A stretch of 64,000 nt of DNA. Origin: Streptomyces sp. NBC_00459. GTDB lineage: Bacteria > Actinomycetota > Actinomycetes > Streptomycetales > Streptomycetaceae. The stretch spans positions 9,672,001 to 9,736,000 of the forward strand of contig NZ_CP107903.1 in assembly GCF_036013955.1 (NCBI RefSeq), read 5' to 3'. A model generated the notes under the pieces. It ran no database searches. It was not told where the DNA came from and was given only the letters and a program-made list of their open reading frames with translations. Position 1 is the stretch's first letter. The number at the start of each line of letters is the position of its first letter. Positions 1 through 21,284 of the stretch are shown here, in pieces. The translations under genes and the position numbers were made by a program.

Positions 1-237
1 GGCCGCCCGACTGCGGCCTTCTCCCGGTGTTCCTGTCGGCGGCCCGGTCGTGGCGCACCCTCCGACCGCCGGTGACGTCCGGCTGCTGGAGCGCGCGCCG
101 GACCCGGCGCCACTCTTCTCCCGCCGTCCCGAGAACGGCAGCCCGCCCGAGCAGCGGGCATGGCACACCTTCGCGGACGGCTCTGCCACCGACACACCTT
201 TGATAACCACCCGCACCCCCACCGAGGGAGAGTGGCC
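1..237. other. Upstream region of the molybdenum oxidase operon
   Basis: No gene is supported here; the open frames lack a start with a ribosome binding site and show no recognisable domain. The last 30 bases carry the ribosome binding site GAGGGAGAG directly before the ATG at 238. The stretch TTTGATAACC near 198-207 could contribute to a promoter but has no matching -35 box that I trust. Confidence 0.4.
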
Positions 238-885
238 ATGTCCACCGAGCATCCCGCTGAAGCAGAGACTTTCCCCGGCGAGTCCCCCACGCCACCACCC
301 ACCCGGCGTACTTTCATCGCCACGACCACCGTTGTCGGAGGAGTCGCCGTGGCAGGCGGCCTGATCGCGGCGTCGCCCGCGCTCGCCGCCGAGGAAACGG
401 TGGCCGCCGAGGTGGTGCCCGGCAGCCGGGTCTCCTTGACCGTCAACGGCGTCCGGCGCACCGTCACGATCGACAACCGCACCTCGCTGCTCGACCTCCT
501 GCGCGAGCGACTCGACCTGACCGGCTCGAAGAAGGGCTGCAACGCCGGTGCCTGCGGCGCCTGTACGGTCCTGGTCGACGGACGCCGGGTCAATTCCTGT
601 CTGACGCTGGCGGTGCGCCTGGAGGGCGCCGAGGTCACCACGATCGAGGGCCTGGCGAAGGGCGACCGGCTCCACCCGATGCAGCAGGCGTTCATCGACC
701 AGGACGCCTTCCAGTGCGGTTTCTGCACATCGGGCCAGATCATGTCCGGCGTCGGGTGCATCCAGGAGGGTCACACGGGCTCCGCGGAGGAGATCCGGGA
801 GTGGATGAGTGGCAACCTCTGCCGCTGCGGCTGCTACGTGAAGATCGAGCGCGCGGTCGAGCAGGCCGCCGCCGGCCGGAAGTGA
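238..885 (+). CDS. paoA: Tat-exported [2Fe-2S] subunit of a PaoABC-type aldehyde oxidoreductase
   Basis: Small iron-sulfur subunit of a xanthine-oxidase-family enzyme, carrying electrons from the molybdenum site to FAD. The 215-residue protein starts at ATG 238 after a GAGGGAGAG site. Residues 22-51 form a Tat signal (TRRTFIA, hydrophobic stretch, ASPALAA). A plant-type ferredoxin domain follows with C101, C106, C109 and C121. The C-terminal all-helical [2Fe-2S] domain has CGFC near 160 and CRCGC near 197. A Tat leader on this subunit is the arrangement of E. coli periplasmic PaoA; the FAD and molybdenum subunits lack leaders and would be co-exported as a folded complex. The FAD-subunit gene follows after 12 bases. 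The leader closely resembles that of the amidohydrolase at 12354. Confidence 0.93.
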   Translation: MSTEHPAEAETFPGESPTPPPTRRTFIATTTVVGGVAVAGGLIAASPALAAEETVAAEVVPGSRVSLTVNGVRRTVTIDNRTSLLDLLRERLDLTGSKKGCNAGACGACTVLVDGRRVNSCLTLAVRLEGAEVTTIEGLAKGDRLHPMQQAFIDQDAFQCGFCTSGQIMSGVGCIQEGHTGSAEEIREWMSGNLCRCGCYVKIERAVEQAAAGRK

Positions 886-897
886 GGATCGATCCCC

Positions 898-1878
898 GTG
901 CATCCCTTCAGCTACACCAAGGCCGCGGACATGCGTGAGGCTCTCAGCGCCGGTTGGCGCGGCGGGCGTTACATCGCCGGCGGCACCACGCTCGTCGACC
1001 TGATGCGGGAGACCGTCGAACGCCCCGGCTCACTGGTCGACATCAGCACCCTGCCACTGCGCGAAGTCGCCGTCACCGCGCGCGGGGGACTGCGCATCGG
1101 CGCCCTGGTCCGCATGGCCGAGGCCGCCGCCCACCCCAAGGTGCGTGTCCTGTACCCCGTCGTCTCCGAGGCGCTGGAGCTGAGCGCCTCGGCCCAGCTG
1201 CGGAACATGGCCACCATCGGTGGCAACATCATGCAGCGCACCCGCTGCGCCTACTTCCGTGACGTGAGCGCCGCCTGCAACAAGCGTGAGCCCGGCTCCG
1301 GGTGCGCCGCGCTGCAGGGCTACAACCGCAGCCACGCGATCCTCGGCACCTCCGACCACTGCGTGGCCACGCATCCCTCCGACGTCGCCGTGGCCTTCGC
1401 GGCACTGGAGGCGACCGTGCACCTGTTGGGCCCGGACGGGGAGCGCCGTGTCGCCTTCGCCGACTTCCTGTTGCGGCCCGGCAAGACACCGAACCGTGAA
1501 CAGGCCCTGCGCCAGGGTGAGTTGATCACCGCTGTGGAGATTCCGGCCCACGCGCGCCCACTGAAGTCCGGTTACCTGAAGGTGCGCGACCGGCAGTCCT
1601 ACGAGTTCGCGCTCACCTCGGCCGCAGTGGCCCTGCACATCCGTGGCGGCGTCATCCGCGACGCGAAGGTCGCCGCCGGCGGGGTGGGCACCGTGCCGTG
1701 GAAGCTGCCCGCCGTCGAGCGCCACCTCATCGGCGAACGCCCTTCCGACCGGCTGTGGGCCGAGGCCGCCGAGCACGCGGCCGACGGGGCCCACCCCCTC
1801 AGCCACAACGGCTTCAAGCCCGAGCTGCTCAAACGCACCGTCGAACGCCAGCTGCGCACCGTAGGAGGCACCAAATGA
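898..1878 (+). CDS. paoB: FAD-binding subunit of the PaoABC-type aldehyde oxidoreductase, with 4Fe-4S loop
   Basis: A 326-residue FAD-binding subunit of the molybdopterin dehydrogenase family. It starts at GTG 898, and its N-terminus MHPFSYTKA is typical of the family. FAD-binding signatures are AGGTTLVDLM near residues 23-32 and TIGGNIMQRTRC near 106-117. Directly after this lies a cysteine-rich loop (CAYFRD, ACNKREPGSGC, around 117-138), the position of the extra [4Fe-4S] cluster in E. coli PaoB; ordinary xanthine dehydrogenase FAD subunits lack it. This strengthens the PaoABC assignment over CO or xanthine dehydrogenase. No export signal is present. Its TGA overlaps the ATG of the large subunit (ATGA), indicating translational coupling. 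Confidence 0.92.
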   Translation: MHPFSYTKAADMREALSAGWRGGRYIAGGTTLVDLMRETVERPGSLVDISTLPLREVAVTARGGLRIGALVRMAEAAAHPKVRVLYPVVSEALELSASAQLRNMATIGGNIMQRTRCAYFRDVSAACNKREPGSGCAALQGYNRSHAILGTSDHCVATHPSDVAVAFAALEATVHLLGPDGERRVAFADFLLRPGKTPNREQALRQGELITAVEIPAHARPLKSGYLKVRDRQSYEFALTSAAVALHIRGGVIRDAKVAAGGVGTVPWKLPAVERHLIGERPSDRLWAEAAEHAADGAHPLSHNGFKPELLKRTVERQLRTVGGTK

Positions 1879-4061
1879 GCCAGCCGCAGGCAGCTGTCGG
1901 TGCGGGGCTGCCCAGGGTCGACGCACGGCTGAGGGTGACCGGGGGAGCGAAGTACGCCGCCGACAACAATCCCGACGGGGTTGTGCACGCGGTCATCGTG
2001 GAAAGCAGCATCGGGCGGGGCCGGATCACCGGCATCGACACCCGTGCCGCCGAAGCCGAGCCAGGCGTACTGAAGGTGATCAGCCACCTCAACGCGCCCA
2101 AGCTGCCGCCCGTGGAAGGGCGGTTCCCGCCGGGCAAGCCGCTGCGCGCCTTTCAGGACGACCGGGTCCAGTTCTTCGGACAGCCCGTCGCGGTGGCGGT
2201 GGCGACCACGCTGGAGATCGCACAGCACGCCGCGAGCCTTGTGAAGGTCTCCTACGCCGCCGAGACCTCCTCGACCGACCTGAGCGTCGCCGACGCCGCC
2301 GGAGAAACCCAGACCTATGCACGCGGCGACGCCGACCGGGCCCTGGACTCCGCCCCCGTCCGGCTTGAGAGCGCGTACCGGACGGCCCGCAACCACCACA
2401 ACCCGATGGAACCGGCCGGCATCGTCGCCCACTGGGACGGCGACCGGCTGACCGTCTGGGAGAAGACCCAGTACGTGCAGGGCGCCGTGTTCACCTTGTC
2501 CGGCGAGTTCGGCATCCCTCCGGGCAACATCCGCGTCATCTCGCCGTTCGTCGGCGGAGCCTTCGGCAACGCCGCCCGCACCTGGGTGCACTCCGTCATC
2601 GCGGCCATGGCCGCACGCGAAGTGAAACGTCCCGTGAAACTCGTCCTCACCCGCAGGCAGATGTACTTCACCGTGGGATTCCGGCCCGCATACGAGTACG
2701 GACTGCGACTGGGCGCCGACCGAGGAGGCCGTCTGACCGCGTCGACGCACGAGGTCCGCGCCGAGTCCTCCCGCTACGAGACCTACAGCGAAAGCGTTCT
2801 CGTCCCCGGCCGGATGCTCTACAGCACGCCCAACGTCCGCCAGGCGTACGACCACGTCCCGCTGGACGTGAGCACGCCGTGGTTCATGCGCGGCCCCGGC
2901 TACGCCAGCGGCACCTACCCGGTCGAGTCGGCCATGGACGAACTCGCCCACGAACTGGGCGTGGACCCGATCGAGCTGCGTCTGCGCAACGAACCGGCCG
3001 ACGACGAGTCCAGTGGCCTGCCGTTCTCCACCCGCCGCCTGCGCGAGTGCTACCGCACGGGCGCCCGTGAGTTCGGCTGGCACCGGCGTAACCCCAAGCC
3101 CCGCTCGACGCGTGACGGTGACTGGCTCATCGGCATGGGCATGGCCGCCGGTGTCTACGACACCGCGCGCAGTCAGGCCCAGGCCTCGGTCCGGCTCGAC
3201 GCCGACGGCACCGCCCTGGTGCAGTCCTCGACCAGCGACATGGGCCCCGGCACGGCCACGTCCATGTCCCAGGTCGCTGCCGACGCACTCGGCCTGACCA
3301 TGCGCCAGGTGACCTTCGGGCTCGGGGACTCCCTGATGCCCCCGGCCCCCGTCCACGCAGGCTCGATGACCATGGCCAGTGTCGGATCCGCTGTTCAGGA
3401 CGGTTGCGACAAGCTGCGCAAGCAGGCGATCACGCTCGCGGTCGACGACGAGGGATCACCGCTGTACGGCGCCGATGCGGCCGGCATCGTGGTGCGAGGC
3501 GGTCGGTTGTACGTGAAGGACGATCCCGCGCGCGGGGAGACCTACCAGCGGCTCCTGGCCCGCAACGACCGGACCCATCTCGAAGTGCTCGGTTCGTACG
3601 CCGGGGCACCGGAACCGGAGAGGTTCTCTCTCTACGCCTACTCCGCGATCTTCGCCGAGGTGGCCGTCGACGCCCGTCTCGGCCTGGTACGGGTCCGGCG
3701 CATGCTCGGTGTCTACGACGCCGCCCGCATCGTCAACCCGAGACTCGCCGACAGCCAGGCCATCGGAGCCATGACCGGCGGGATCGGTCAGGCCCTCCTC
3801 GAGCACACGGTCACCGACCACCGCGACGGCCGGATCGTCAACGCGAACTTCGCCGACTACCTCGTGCCGAGCCACGCCGACATCCACGACCTGAAGGCGA
3901 TCTTCATCGACGGGGAGGACTACGAAGCCGACCCCATCGGAGTCAAGGGGCTCGGCGAGGTCGTCATCGTCGGAGTGGCACCCGCCATCGCCAACGCGGT
4001 GTTCAACGCCACCGGTCGCCGCATCCGTGACCTGCCCATCACCGCCGAAGCACTGCTCTGA
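1875..4061 (+). CDS. paoC: Molybdopterin-binding catalytic subunit of the PaoABC-type aldehyde oxidoreductase
   Basis: A 728-residue catalytic subunit, close to the 732 residues of E. coli PaoC. The start is the ATG overlapping the upstream stop, preceded by GTAGGAGG. Motifs include VGGAFGNA (near 230), the MRGPGYASG segment with the arginine-glycine-proline signature of the cofactor site (near 337), DMGPGTATSMSQVAADALG (near 455), and the C-terminal GVKGLGEV, whose Glu is the expected catalytic base. Known PaoABC oxidises a broad range of aromatic and aliphatic aldehydes; the substrate here is inferred from that and from the surrounding aromatic-degradation genes. A strong GC hairpin follows the stop, before the maturation-factor gene. 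Confidence 0.93.
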   Translation: MSQPQAAVGAGLPRVDARLRVTGGAKYAADNNPDGVVHAVIVESSIGRGRITGIDTRAAEAEPGVLKVISHLNAPKLPPVEGRFPPGKPLRAFQDDRVQFFGQPVAVAVATTLEIAQHAASLVKVSYAAETSSTDLSVADAAGETQTYARGDADRALDSAPVRLESAYRTARNHHNPMEPAGIVAHWDGDRLTVWEKTQYVQGAVFTLSGEFGIPPGNIRVISPFVGGAFGNAARTWVHSVIAAMAAREVKRPVKLVLTRRQMYFTVGFRPAYEYGLRLGADRGGRLTASTHEVRAESSRYETYSESVLVPGRMLYSTPNVRQAYDHVPLDVSTPWFMRGPGYASGTYPVESAMDELAHELGVDPIELRLRNEPADDESSGLPFSTRRLRECYRTGAREFGWHRRNPKPRSTRDGDWLIGMGMAAGVYDTARSQAQASVRLDADGTALVQSSTSDMGPGTATSMSQVAADALGLTMRQVTFGLGDSLMPPAPVHAGSMTMASVGSAVQDGCDKLRKQAITLAVDDEGSPLYGADAAGIVVRGGRLYVKDDPARGETYQRLLARNDRTHLEVLGSYAGAPEPERFSLYAYSAIFAEVAVDARLGLVRVRRMLGVYDAARIVNPRLADSQAIGAMTGGIGQALLEHTVTDHRDGRIVNANFADYLVPSHADIHDLKAIFIDGEDYEADPIGVKGLGEVVIVGVAPAIANAVFNATGRRIRDLPITAEALL

Positions 4062-7649: not shown

Positions 7650-8105
7650 TCATGCCTCCCGGACCACGCAGGCCACCTCGTCGAGCAGAGTCCTCAGTTG
7701 TGCGGCCTTCTTGGGGCCCAGCTTCTCGGCGATCTGCTCTTCGATCCCCACGATCACGGCATCGGCATCGCGCAGGGAGTCACGGCCCGCGTCAGTGAGG
7801 TGCAGCTCCTGCACATGGCGGTGGCGCGGATGCGGTCGGCGTTCCAGTTGGCCCCGCTCCTCCAGACGGGCCACCTGCGAGGCCACCGCCTGCGGGGTGA
7901 CGTTCAGGCGGCGGGCCAGTTCCGCACCGGTCAGGCCGGGATCGCCGTGGACGGAGATCAGTAGCGTGTACTGCGCGGCCGCGATTCCCAGCGGTCGTAG
8001 CCGTTGGTCCTTCCGGGCCTGAACTGCCCACTCCGTCCGCCGTAGAGCCCAGGTCACCCGGTCCTGCGCGTTGGCGGCGATCGTCCGCTCGTCATCATGT
8101 GTCAC
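7650..8105 (-). CDS. MarR-family transcriptional regulator (copy 1)
   Basis: A 151-residue winged-helix regulator starting at GTG 8105. The DNA-binding core is LTGAELARRLNVTPQAVAS followed by the wing RRPHPRHRHVQELHLTDAG. It is very similar along its whole length to the MarR gene at 8290-8745 and equal in length, so the two look like a recent tandem duplication; the N-terminal 13 residues and the C-terminal helix differ most, as expected if ligand or dimer specificity has diverged. MarR proteins usually repress genes for handling aromatic acids or drugs. Likely targets are the neighbouring SDR and aldehyde dehydrogenase genes. Confidence 0.9.
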   Translation of the reverse strand: MTHDDERTIAANAQDRVTWALRRTEWAVQARKDQRLRPLGIAAAQYTLLISVHGDPGLTGAELARRLNVTPQAVASQVARLEERGQLERRPHPRHRHVQELHLTDAGRDSLRDADAVIVGIEEQIAEKLGPKKAAQLRTLLDEVACVVREA

Positions 8106-8289
8106 GCCGCGAGAATACGACACCTGGGCTTGCATAAAACAGCTGATATCAATCAACCGGCTGGAGGCATGGAGCTTGCGTGTGGCGGCAGGCATGTGTG
8201 GTCAGGGGAGGGGATGGCCTCCGGCTCTCCGGTTGGGGCGCCAGGGGCCACCCCTCGCAGGGCGGCCGTCGGTCGACGGGGCCTTGGGG

Positions 8290-12099: not shown

Positions 12100-12353
12100 C
12101 CGACCGGCGACCGGAAGCCCACGGTCCGGGCCGACATCCACCCCGCCGCCAGACCGGTCACCGACTGACTGACGGCACCGGATCCGGGAGGGCTGTGCAC
12201 GCCTCGGACCCGGTCGCCGGACACGGTCCGTCGCCCAGTGCGAGCCGACCACAACAGCCGATGTCCCACTGGGGAACGACGCGCACCTCCGCGGAGCACG
12301 ATTGCGATGGGACGTCCCGACAACCACCGCGCCACCATCGAGGGAGAGCGGAC

Positions 12354-13547
12354 ATGTCCGACGAACGTCCTTTCCGAGCCGTGACTCCACCCGCCGAGCC
12401 CCTGACCGCAGCCACCCGGCGAGGATTCCTCGCCGCGACCGCCGCTGCCGGAGGAGCCGCCGTAGCCGGCGGTCTGGTCGCGGGACAACCCGCGCTCGCC
12501 GCGGAGGCAGTGCCTGGCAGCCCTGCCTCCATGAAAGTCGGCGGCTCGAAAGACCATCGGAACGCCAAGAAGGAGAAGAAGATGCGCATCGTAGCTGTGG
12601 AGGAGGCGTTCTCCATTCCCGGAGCCATCCGGCAGGAGGCGGCGATCCGTCAGCGCTTGGAGGCAACGGAGGAGACCAAGCGGGAGTGGTTCCGGCGCCT
12701 GGACGACGTGACCGAACTGCGGCTGGCCGACATGGACGCCAACGGCGTCGACATGCAGGTCCTCTCTTACTCCACGCCGGGCCTGGAAGTGATCGAGGAT
12801 CCGGCGGAGGCGGTGGCCGTGGCGCGACGGGTCAACGACTATCTGGCCAAGGCGGTCGCCAGTCATCCGAAGCGGTTCGCGGGCTTCGCGGTCCTTCCGC
12901 TGCAGGACCCGAAGGCCGCCGTCGTGGAGCTGCGCCGGGCGGTGAACGAGCTCGGGCTCAAGGGTGTGCTGTACAACGACCATGTACGGGGGCACTACCT
13001 GGACGAGCCGCAGTTCAGGCCCGTATGGGCCGAGCTGGAGCGCCTCGGCGTGACGCTGTATCTGCATCCGGCTGTCATTCCGGCCGACAAGTGGCGTGTC
13101 TTCGACGGGCATCCCGTGCTGGTCGGGCCGTCCTGGGGCTGGACCGCGACGGTGGGCGCCCATGCACTCCGGCTGATCTACGGCGGCGTGTTCGACGAGT
13201 TCCCGGGCGCATCAGTGATGTTGGGTCACATGGGCGAGCTGCTGCCGTTCCAGATGGCCCGGCTCGACAGCCGCTACCCCGCCCAAGTTCCGGTTGAGCG
13301 GAGGGTGCAGCACCTGCCCTCGTACTACCTGCGCAACAACGTGTACGTCACCACCAGCGGAGTCATGTCCCATGCCGCGCTGCTGGGAGCCGTCCATGCT
13401 GTCGGTGTCGACCGGGTGCTGTTCTCCATCGACTACCCGTTCGAGTCCAGCGCCGATGCGGTGGCGTTCCTGCGTTCCGCACCGTACGCGCGGGCCGACC
13501 TCGCCCGCATCGCGCACGGCAATGCCGAACGCGTTCTGGGGCTGTGA
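12354..13547 (+). CDS. Amidohydrolase-2 family protein (dihydroxybenzoate decarboxylase-like) with fused Tat leader
   Basis: The 397-residue frame starts at ATG 12354 after GAGGGAGAG. Residues 1-50 form a Tat leader (TRRGFLA ... QPALAA). The amidohydrolase begins at an internal Met (12582) that has its own AAGGAGAAGAAG site; from there the protein is 321 residues, the usual size for gamma-resorcylate and 2,3-dihydroxybenzoate decarboxylases. Metal-site motifs are VEEAFSIP (E-x-A rather than E-x-H), YLHPA, LGHMGE and SIDYPFES. Family members are Zn- or Mn-dependent nonoxidative decarboxylases of hydroxybenzoates or related hydrolases. Two products, exported and cytoplasmic, are possible. The leader resembles that of the oxidase Fe-S subunit at 238 even past the cleavage site. 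Confidence 0.85.
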   Translation: MSDERPFRAVTPPAEPLTAATRRGFLAATAAAGGAAVAGGLVAGQPALAAEAVPGSPASMKVGGSKDHRNAKKEKKMRIVAVEEAFSIPGAIRQEAAIRQRLEATEETKREWFRRLDDVTELRLADMDANGVDMQVLSYSTPGLEVIEDPAEAVAVARRVNDYLAKAVASHPKRFAGFAVLPLQDPKAAVVELRRAVNELGLKGVLYNDHVRGHYLDEPQFRPVWAELERLGVTLYLHPAVIPADKWRVFDGHPVLVGPSWGWTATVGAHALRLIYGGVFDEFPGASVMLGHMGELLPFQMARLDSRYPAQVPVERRVQHLPSYYLRNNVYVTTSGVMSHAALLGAVHAVGVDRVLFSIDYPFESSADAVAFLRSAPYARADLARIAHGNAERVLGL

Positions 13548-16983: not shown

Positions 16984-17091
16984 ACACTTCATGGATTCCG
17001 CTGAGGGGAAACAGTGGCCTAGCGTCAGGACCAGCGCCGAACGATGTGCGCTTCTTCCGACGGTCGCCGAACACAAGACCTGGAGGTCTCC

Positions 17092-18168
17092 GTGACCGAT
17101 ACCACCAGTGAACAGACCGAGCGCAAGCTGCTCGACGAGCTGTACGCGGACTTCGAGGACGCGGGTCTGATCCCGCTGTGGACGCAGGTGGACGGCCTCA
17201 TGCCGATGTCGCCGCAGCCCGCCGCGGTACCGCACCTGTGGCGGTGGACGGAGCTGCTGCCCATCGCGCAGCGCTCCGGAGAGCTCGTACCGGTGGGGCG
17301 TGGCGGCGAGCGCCGTGCCATGGCACTGTCCAACCCCGGTCTCCCGGGCCTTCCCTTCGCCACCCCGACCCTGTGGACCGCGATCCAGTACCTGGGGCCG
17401 CGCGAGATAGCCCCCTCGCACCGGCACAGCCAGGGAGCCTTCCGGTTCGTTCTCGAAGGCGAGGGCGTGTGGACCAACGTCGACGGCGACGCGGTCGCGA
17501 TGGGGCGGGGTGACCTGCTGCTCACGCCGAGCTGGGCCTTCCACGAGCACCAGAACGTCACCGACAAGCCGATGGCCTGGCTCGACGGACTCGACATCCC
17601 CCTCGTCTCCAAACTGGACGCGGGGTTCTTCGAGTTCGGCCCCGACGAACTCTCCACCCGCGAAACCCCCGAACACTCGCGCGGTGAGCGACTGTGGGGT
17701 CACCCTGGGCTGCGCCCGATCAGCCGGCCCGACCAGCCCAACTCCCCGCTGGGCGCCTACCGCTGGGAGCACACCGACGCCGCCCTGACCGCCCAGCTGG
17801 AGCTGGAGGACGAAGGCGTAGCCGGAGTGATCGAGCCCGGGCACGCCGGAGTCCGCTTCTCCAACCCGACCACCGGCCGGGACGCCCTGGTCACGATGCG
17901 CACCGAGATGCGCCGACTGCGGGCCGGAGCACAGACCGCCTCCGTGCGTTCGGTCGGCTCCGCGGTCTGGCAGGTGTTCGAGGGCGAGGCGGTCGCCCGA
18001 GTCGGCGACAAGGTCTTCGAGATCGCCACGGGCGACCTGTTCGTCGTCCCGTCCTGGTGCGAGGTCTCGCTGTCCGCCCGCACCCAGGTCGACCTGTTCC
18101 GTTTCAGCGACGAGCCCGTCTACGAAGCCCTGGGACTCGCCCGTACCTCCCGAGGAGAACACAAGTGA
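17092..18168 (+). CDS. sdgD: Gentisate 1,2-dioxygenase
   Basis: A 358-residue double-cupin ring-cleavage enzyme: gentisate plus O2 gives maleylpyruvate, with Fe(II). GTG 17092 follows a good CTGGAGG site; in-frame upstream residues are not conserved in character. The N-terminal cupin has the expected iron ligands H110 and H112 (APSHRHSQGAF) and H151 (PSWAFHEHQ). The second cupin (about 250-345) lacks the histidines, as in known gentisate dioxygenases. It is the first gene of the operon. Its TGA overlaps the GTG of the hydrolase gene. It corresponds to SdgD of the described salicylate pathway in Streptomyces sp. WA46. Confidence 0.93.
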   Translation: MTDTTSEQTERKLLDELYADFEDAGLIPLWTQVDGLMPMSPQPAAVPHLWRWTELLPIAQRSGELVPVGRGGERRAMALSNPGLPGLPFATPTLWTAIQYLGPREIAPSHRHSQGAFRFVLEGEGVWTNVDGDAVAMGRGDLLLTPSWAFHEHQNVTDKPMAWLDGLDIPLVSKLDAGFFEFGPDELSTRETPEHSRGERLWGHPGLRPISRPDQPNSPLGAYRWEHTDAALTAQLELEDEGVAGVIEPGHAGVRFSNPTTGRDALVTMRTEMRRLRAGAQTASVRSVGSAVWQVFEGEAVARVGDKVFEIATGDLFVVPSWCEVSLSARTQVDLFRFSDEPVYEALGLARTSRGEHK

Positions 18169-19727: not shown

Positions 19728-21284
19728 ATGATGAAAGTTGCCTGCATCGGCGCAGGTCCCGGAGGACTGTTCTTCGCGACCCTGCTCAAGCGGAGCCGAC
19801 CCGGCGCGGAGGTCGTGGTCTTCGAACGCAACGGCCCCGACGACACGTTCGGCTTCGGAGTGGTCTTCTCCGACGCCACCCTCGACGCCATCGACGCCGC
19901 CGACCCCGTCCTCAGTGAGGCGCTGGAGAAGCACGGCCGGCACTGGGACGACATCGAGGTCCGCGTGCACGGCGCACGGGAACGCGTCGGCGGCATGGGC
20001 ATGGCCGCTGTCGTACGCAAGACGCTGCTGAGCCTGTTGCAGGAGAGGGCCCGCGCCCAGGGCGTTCGGATGCGCTTCCAGCACGAGATCCGTGATCCCG
20101 CCGAATTGGACGACTTCGACCTGGTCGTGGTGTGCGACGGCGCCAACAGCCGCTTCCGCACGGTGTTCGCCGACGACTTCGGACCGACGGCGGACGTGGC
20201 GAGCGCGAAGTTCGTCTGGTTCGGCACCTCGTACATGTTCGACGGGCTCACCTTCGTCCACCAGGACGGCCCGCACGGTGTCTTCGCCGCCCACGCCTAT
20301 CCGATCGGCGACTCGCTGAGCACCTTCATCGTCGAGACCGACGCCGACTCCTGGGCCAGGGCCGGACTCGACACCTTCGATCCCTCGACCCCGCCGGGCC
20401 CGAGCGACGAGAAGACCAAGGCCTACCTGGAGGACCTCTTCCGCGAGCAGATCGACGGGCACCCGCTGGTCGGCAACAACTCCCGCTGGGCCAACTTCGC
20501 CACGCGCAGGGCCAGTTCGTGGCGGCGTGGGAAGTGGGTGCTGCTGGGCGACGCGGCGCACACCGCGCACTTCTCCGTCGGATCCGGCACCAAGATGGCC
20601 ATGGAGGACGCCGTCGCGCTGGCCGAGGCCCTGGGGGAGTCACCGCACAGCGTGCCCGAGGCACTCGACGCCTACGAGTCGCGCCGCCGCCCCAAGGTCG
20701 AGAAGATCCAGAACTCGGCGCGGCCCAGCCTGTCGTGGTGGGAGCACTTCGGCCGCTACGTCCGCTCGTTCGACGATCCGACGCAGTTCGCCTTCCACTT
20801 CCTCACCCGCAGCATCCCGCGCGGCAAACTCGCCGTGCGTGACGCGGCGTACGTGGACCGCGTCGACGGATGGTGGCGCGAACACCACGGGGCACCGCCC
20901 CTGGAGACACCTTTCCGCAGTGGGACGTTCAGGCTTCCCTCACGCCGCGTGGCAGTCGGCGACGACCTCCTGACCGGGACGGACGGCACCGCCATCCCGA
21001 TGGTCCCCTTCGGCGGTCAGCCGTCCGAGGCGGGTGTGTGGATCGACGCCCCGGACACCGAGGAGGGTCTGCCTCTCGCCCTCGATCAGGTGCGTGAGAC
21101 GGCGGAATCGGGCGCCCCGCTCGTCGGCGTACGCGGTGGTACGACGCTGACCCGCGTACTGGTCGCCGAGGAAGCCCGACTCGCGCACAGCCTGCCGGCG
21201 GCGGTCATCGGCGCGTACGACGACGACACCGCGACCACCCTCCTGCTGTCCGGCCGGGCCGACCTCGTCGGAGGCGTCAAGTGA
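19728..21284 (+). CDS. sdgC: Salicylyl-CoA 5-hydroxylase (FAD monooxygenase)
   Basis: A 518-residue flavin monooxygenase starting at ATG 19728 after GAAGGAAAG. The FAD motif GAGPGG is at 8-13, the second-half GDAAH at 274-278, and FGFGVVFSDATLD near 43-55 is typical of CoA-thioester aromatic hydroxylases related to benzoyl-CoA-type monooxygenases. The reaction in WA46 is salicylyl-CoA plus NADH plus O2 to gentisyl-CoA, which then yields gentisate and CoA. The C-terminal 110 residues form an extra domain ending in a flavodoxin-like tail found in this subfamily. Its TGA overlaps the GTG of the acyl-CoA synthetase gene. Confidence 0.9.
   Translation: MMKVACIGAGPGGLFFATLLKRSRPGAEVVVFERNGPDDTFGFGVVFSDATLDAIDAADPVLSEALEKHGRHWDDIEVRVHGARERVGGMGMAAVVRKTLLSLLQERARAQGVRMRFQHEIRDPAELDDFDLVVVCDGANSRFRTVFADDFGPTADVASAKFVWFGTSYMFDGLTFVHQDGPHGVFAAHAYPIGDSLSTFIVETDADSWARAGLDTFDPSTPPGPSDEKTKAYLEDLFREQIDGHPLVGNNSRWANFATRRASSWRRGKWVLLGDAAHTAHFSVGSGTKMAMEDAVALAEALGESPHSVPEALDAYESRRRPKVEKIQNSARPSLSWWEHFGRYVRSFDDPTQFAFHFLTRSIPRGKLAVRDAAYVDRVDGWWREHHGAPPLETPFRSGTFRLPSRRVAVGDDLLTGTDGTAIPMVPFGGQPSEAGVWIDAPDTEEGLPLALDQVRETAESGAPLVGVRGGTTLTRVLVAEEARLAHSLPAAVIGAYDDDTATTLLLSGRADLVGGVK

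Follow-up and report, generated by a model that had tools for sequence, protein, structure and literature searches.

The gene at 12354-13547 of the window (the whole stretch analysed, 64,000 nucleotides of the Streptomyces sp. NBC_00459 contig NZ_CP107903.1) is probably a graft, in which the export leader of a PaoA-like gene was joined to a decarboxylase-like gene that kept its own start, with both starts held by selection. The basis of this reading lies in sequence comparison and covers the homology of the leaders, the direction of the transfer, the copies of the 5′UTR in relatives and the conservation of both starts. The features concerned are collected in Table 1.

Table 1. Features of the amidohydrolase gene and of the PaoA-like gene, in window coordinates.
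Feature	Position	Strand	Basis or remark
Donor segment in the PaoA-like gene: 5′UTR from ~-78, RBS GAGGGAGAG, Tat leader, first mature codons	160..455	+	MAFFT; boundaries approximate
PaoA-like [2Fe-2S] subunit of molybdenum aldehyde oxidoreductase	238..885	+	Pfam Fer2/Fer2_2; NCBIfam PaoA model
FAD subunit	898-1878		3′ of the PaoA-like gene
Mo subunit	about 1878-4061		3′ of the FAD subunit
R1, eroded upstream copy of the amidohydrolase 5′UTR; meets PaoA-derived DNA at ~12278-12286	12240..12286	+	placed by eye against relatives' R1
Captured PaoA cassette: 5′UTR, RBS, Tat leader	12281..12539	+	leader alignments, own-genome search, leader tree
Long-form RBS, GAGGGAGAG, inherited from PaoA	12340..12348	+	
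N-terminal extension, 76 codons; twin arginines 12417-12422; ALA at residues 47-49	12354..12581	+	
R2, downstream 5′UTR copy, read as linker before the core Met	12540..12581	+	aligns with leaderless 5′UTR of L049 and L012
Short-form Shine-Dalgarno (SD) GGAG	12572..12575	+	21 of 21 distinct loci; duplex -9.7 kcal/mol
Amidohydrolase_2 core, 321 aa, gamma-resorcylate/2,3-dihydroxybenzoate decarboxylase-like; own ATG	12582..13547	+	PF04909, 2dvt

The leaders of the amidohydrolase and of the PaoA-like Fe-S subunit at 238 are homologous at the DNA level. A preliminary description of this DNA had drawn the parallel, and it is borne out by a local DNA alignment of 202-395 with 12319-12508, which scored 132, whereas the best of 500 dinucleotide-shuffled pairs reached 37. 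When the leader was searched against its own genome, a single strong second match was returned (9672211-9672394, window 211-394; E 5e-23, 73% identity) and the third match had E = 0.0017; together, the shuffle test and this search exclude a chance likeness of the two leaders. The description had let the parallel run from the ribosome binding site to past the cleavage site. The common DNA begins further upstream: softer scoring stretches the match to 163-477 versus 12281-12578, so that homology starts at ~12281, facing ~163 in PaoA and ~75 bases 5′ of each start codon, and alignment with other PaoA genes puts its end at ~12539, facing ~450. AVPGS, which had been taken for the cleavage site, lies in the mature part, since by the AxA rule for signal-peptide cleavage we take the leader to be likely cut after the ALA of residues 47-49. 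The start of a normal-length enzyme, placed after about 75 codons, is there, with the ATG at 12582 opening 321 codons. The boundaries of donor segment and cassette come from a MAFFT alignment of 12 window-type PaoA genes and 13 amidohydrolase cassettes, where window-type denotes 13 genes at least 84% identical to the window's, a set defined by identity and not by proven linkage. We name the gene at 238 PaoA-like only, because its match to the NCBIfam PaoA model NF008514 (E 1.7e-65), at 220.5 bits, falls below the curated cut-off of 322.

The core matches PF04909 over its full length (E 1.4e-36, 127.2 bits, cut-off 26.4) and gamma-resorcylate decarboxylase (PDB 2dvt) over residues 4-319 of 321 (E 1.8e-70), with further matches to 2,3-dihydroxybenzoate decarboxylase (6m53) and salicylate decarboxylase (6jqw); an NCBIfam search of the core at E 0.001 matched no family. 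We take the metal ligands of the 2dvt family to be Glu8, His164 and Asp287, with His10 variable. Glu 7 of the core and the His/Asp of LYLHPA, LGHMGE and FSIDYP align to 2dvt, so the E, H, H and D of that alignment are kept, and Ala stands at the place of His10, as it presumably does in 2,3-dihydroxybenzoate and salicylate decarboxylases too. The gene is thus like the gamma-resorcylate and 2,3-dihydroxybenzoate decarboxylases (2dvt, 6m53) in sequence family and in these residues, but unlike them it adds a leader. Genes resembling gentisate 1,2-dioxygenase and salicylyl-CoA 5-hydroxylase lie at window 17044-18168 and 19728-21284 (NCBIfam matches below cut-offs). These genes point to an aromatic acid catabolic cluster, and the decarboxylase-like gene likely has a role in aromatic acid turnover. 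Two similar adjoining MarR-like regulator genes were also seen by eye on the minus strand, at 7650-8195 and 8290-about 8700.

An amidohydrolase of at least 82% identity occurs in 9 of 392 genomes of the genus. Our clade sample comprised 22 loci, one of them with a duplicate core, giving 21 distinct loci in 20 genomes; L050, whose core is identical to that of L010, and L048, with the same reading as L014, were dropped before counting, and the window's locus is L009 in this numbering. A search of 296 relatives yielded no further member of the clade. The 21 distinct loci across 20 genomes exclude a private oddity or an assembly artefact. Leader-bearing loci number 19, the leader being intact and in frame in 17 and broken in two: in L046 by a frameshift in the linker, which may be a draft-assembly error, and in L016 by a nonsense codon upstream of the twin arginines. 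The remaining two, L012 and L049, have no leader. Among individual loci, the hydrophobic region (h-region) of the Tat leader of L014 has grown by a 27-nt in-frame tandem expansion, and one assembly (S. violaceoruber NRRL S-981) contains two leader-bearing copies, L056 and L059, the former with a leader from one lineage and a core from another.

In the nearest other clade (~72% identity, including Micromonospora KC606), the Tat leader looks different by eye and is damaged or cut in some rows; L177, basal in this sister clade, is leaderless with a strong SD. A long leader in all orthologues across genera, which the preliminary description had set against its own reading, is therefore not what we find. 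In L019, L051, L018, L020, L052 and other sister rows, the apparently unrelated Tat leader is preceded by a conserved TTAGGTAGCCTA-type repeat and followed by the core, an arrangement that looks to have come from a second leader gain, independent of the first; L177 has the TTAGGTAGCCTA-type repeat and the SD, with the leader absent. In the sister leaders of L022, L053 and L058/L021, the twin arginines are deleted or the frame is altered. Tat-like leaders are also seen by eye in distant relatives from Enterobacterales and Acidobacteria. Since such leaders are common in the wider family, export is not peculiar to the window's gene; it seems to have been repeatedly gained, swapped or lost across this enzyme family.

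The surroundings of the cassette were read against the leaderless L049, in which only 90 bases separate the stop of the aldehyde dehydrogenase gene from the core ATG. A 5′UTR of this type, with GGAGG, occurs twice in leader-bearing relatives, on either side of the PaoA piece (R1 and R2). Because the relatives' cassette stands between these two copies, the linker would be mostly former 5′UTR, that is, once non-coding DNA; it is the least conserved part of the gene (pN 0.21, versus 0.12 in the leader and 0.05 in the core). The R1 of L040 aligns with the 5′UTR of L049 over 102 nt, gapless, with a score of 52 (null maximum 18), and R1 scores above every shuffle in 10 of 19 loci against L049 and in 8 of 19 against L012. 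Within the same genome, R1 matches R2 at an uncorrected p<0.05 in 13 of 18 loci (L043, in which no anchor was found, enters the former comparison, n=19, and is left out of this one and of the R1 GGAG count, n=18). The window's own R1 is not significant against the empty sites, scoring 12 against L049 (null maximum 19) and 18.5 against L012 (null maximum 20.5), and the comparison with R2 fails in L009 (the window, p 0.99), L039, L041, L042 and L015, so that the duplication in the window is read from its relatives. A DNA search of seven genomes with the L049 UTR recovered R2 or the empty site in G402, G292 and G253, with an additional weak 30-base match in G402 (E 0.0024), and no match in G000, G393, G397 and G399; diverged copies were for this reason read by in-place alignment. 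Where R1 passes into PaoA-like DNA, a short common GCRCA is seen by eye. Derivation of the UTR copy from the upstream region of PaoA was rejected: none of 13 PaoA genes scored above the shuffle maximum, and L131 alone exceeded the 95th percentile.

The preliminary description had the enzyme keep its own start, and several controls agree with it. GGAG occupies -10 to -7 of the core ATG in every distinct locus, and persists although the linker residues vary (KKEKK or TSEEK) and, in L046, the frame is shifted; the ATG itself is kept in 20 of the 21, L044 having CTG with its leader intact. In the start-less R1, GGAG remains in 5 of 18 loci, while the R2 of these loci has it in all 18 (Fisher 7e-6, a value inflated by kinship of the rows). 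Among sister rows carrying a Tat leader of their own it is never seen (0/12), while the leaderless L177 has it. Of the 142 in-frame internal ATGs in 26 other long ORFs of the window, two equal the SD duplex at 12582 and none is equally free of structure. Median SD duplexes are -9.5 kcal/mol in the clade (21 loci) versus -5.0 in the sister clade (12 rows), and median MFEs are -10.1 versus -26.1 kcal/mol; L177, counted among those 12 rows, has -10.3 and -6.5 kcal/mol, respectively. All four loci with a broken or absent leader keep the SD, the ATG and a full stop-free core, whose median omega is 0.17-0.22 versus 0.13-0.26 in 15 intact rows (crude pairwise sums, computed without L056 and L059, which are cut by contig ends, and mixing time before and after the loss in the leader-lacking loci). 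The gene has what we took to mark a dual start, namely an internal start that is in frame and whose initiation signals are conserved, and from these signals the start at 12582 looks to be in use. The Glu/Lys codons of the linker could, however, hold GGAG for protein reasons. It is unlikely, in our judgement, that the same graft makes the exported form only, its internal SD and ATG being relics of the old 5′UTR. The CTG of L044 would suit such relics, which could also persist in a young graft; but R1, presumably equally old, has largely lost its GGAG, the four loci depend on the internal start, and the sister rows with a leader of their own combine absence of GGAG with strong structure at the ATG.

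By its substitution pattern, the leader is under constraint too. Features of a Tat substrate can be read from it, namely the RRxF[IL] motif, a mild hydrophobic stretch and an AxA site, and TRRxF[IL]A is present in all 17 intact leaders. Signal peptides are usually loosely constrained. From RR onward, omega is 0.46 for the amidohydrolase leader (without the broken L046 and L016), 0.55 for PaoA's own leader and 0.18 for the enzyme core; a value so close to that of PaoA indicates that the leader is not dead. That the short cytoplasmic form alone matters, with the leader as a decaying passenger of the same graft, could be argued from the 4 of 21 loci in which it is broken or absent and from the omega of 0.76 in its n-region. 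We consider this rather improbable, as 17 of 21 loci hold the frame across leader and linker despite several length differences, every one of them with the twin-arginine motif, and omega past RR is akin to PaoA's own.

In a tree of leaders, the cassettes of the 19 loci form one clade (100/100) inside a group (99/97) with the 13 window-type PaoA leaders, and the same nesting (97/82) is recovered in a second tree of 18 amidohydrolase and 49 PaoA rows, in which L009, included in the former tree, is missing since the pattern missed it. Mean identity of the cassettes is 72.1% to the 13 window-type PaoA genes versus 60.3% to 10 others. Because the cassettes form one clade nested among PaoA leaders, the move was from PaoA to the amidohydrolase. 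Distant relatives of the enzyme do often bear Tat-like leaders by eye, yet a leader ancestral to the amidohydrolase and copied by PaoA, or taken by both from a third gene, is very hard to credit given this nesting, the unlike sister leaders (by eye), the leaderless basal L177 with its strong SD and the lack of a good third match in the window's own genome. A PaoA gene at least 84% identical is present in 13 of the 20 clade genomes (the other seven have one of at most 82% or none), which leaves some genomes with no visible resident donor. In the genus, PaoA at 87% identity or more is found in 5 of 392 genomes (G000, G108, G222, G226 and G253), all of them within the nine with the amidohydrolase; it lies upstream on the same strand, with 12 to 40 kb between, in G000, G226, G222 and G108, and the two are 1.4 Mb apart in G253. 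L012 and L049 are probably not survivors of the ancestral leaderless state: in the core tree both fall among leader-bearing rows, and a single clade of the leader-bearing rows is rejected by the AU test (p 0.0005), as is a single clade of L012 with L049 (p 0.0006). Their leaderlessness is more likely due to secondary losses. Branching within the clade is poorly supported, and recombination, as in the L056 chimera, may mislead the AU tests.

We propose the following course for the graft with two live starts. The ancestor would have been a cytoplasmic decarboxylase-type amidohydrolase with its own SD and ATG, located behind an aldehyde dehydrogenase gene. A piece of a paoA-like gene of the same cluster (~-78 to codon 72, with 5′UTR, RBS and Tat signal) would then have been placed before it by illegitimate recombination, leaving a copy of the amidohydrolase 5′UTR on each side; the duplicated flanks would follow from insertion of the cassette with duplication of its target. 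Two routes could produce this: a deletion after tandem duplication of the DNA reaching from PaoA as far as the start of the amidohydrolase, or template switching during replication. The downstream UTR copy, by chance open in frame, would have become the linker. Initiation at 12354 would yield a Tat precursor for export and initiation at 12582, with its own SD, the ancestral cytoplasmic enzyme; selection would keep both starts in most descendants for the two forms, and where the leader is broken or lost the internal start would carry the gene. Dual localisation, with exported and cytoplasmic forms both made, is likely. The recombination product proposed in the preliminary description is strongly supported by the single origin nested in PaoA leaders, the duplicated 5′UTR flanks of relatives and the alleles that lack a leader but share SD and start.

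In the accessible text of the report on E. coli PaoABC, that complex is exported by Tat through the PaoA signal (PMC4273604). The window resembles it in a PaoA-type Fe-S subunit with a Tat signal and two more subunits in the operon, and differs in that a PaoA-type leader is found on an unrelated enzyme as well; by analogy, this leader would bring the decarboxylase to the place of the oxidase. Bacterial genes with two in-frame starts, with and without a signal peptide, are already known, as far as the available parts of two reports go (PMC11005335, PMC4899797). PA2699 of Pseudomonas aeruginosa, likewise a Tat candidate of the amidohydrolase superfamily, can start at either of two AUGs that lie in frame and 141 bp apart; unlike the window gene (Amidohydrolase_2), it belongs to Amidohydrolase_3, and the available text treats its leader as a corrected start and does not trace it to another gene (PMC4899797). 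Salmonella PagC and OmpX similarly have in-frame starts giving a long form with a signal peptide and a short form without, but their signals are of the Sec type, whereas the window gene has a Tat-type leader, and the origin of the leader is not dealt with in the accessible portion of that report (PMC11005335). Our literature search, thin on subscription journals, returned no report of this gene or of an oxidase-subunit Tat leader moved to an amidohydrolase, and, with the same coverage, no case in which donor type, duplicated UTR and leaderless alleles are all readable.

The acquisition of signal peptides by bacterial proteins is seldom caught in progress. Here, one genus preserves the donor type, the recipient, approximate junctions and both leaderless and broken alleles. 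Selection on the live ribosome site can be gauged against its copy without a start codon, which serves as an internal control. For annotation, choosing either start alone may misannotate the gene. We regard it as about an even call that export was gained in one event, which captured UTR, RBS and Tat leader from a neighbour in the cluster and duplicated the gene's own UTR, giving a stable two-start unit whose repeats permit loss of the exported form while the enzyme is kept; the oxidase and the decarboxylase could then share the outer compartment, with a cytoplasmic pool persisting.
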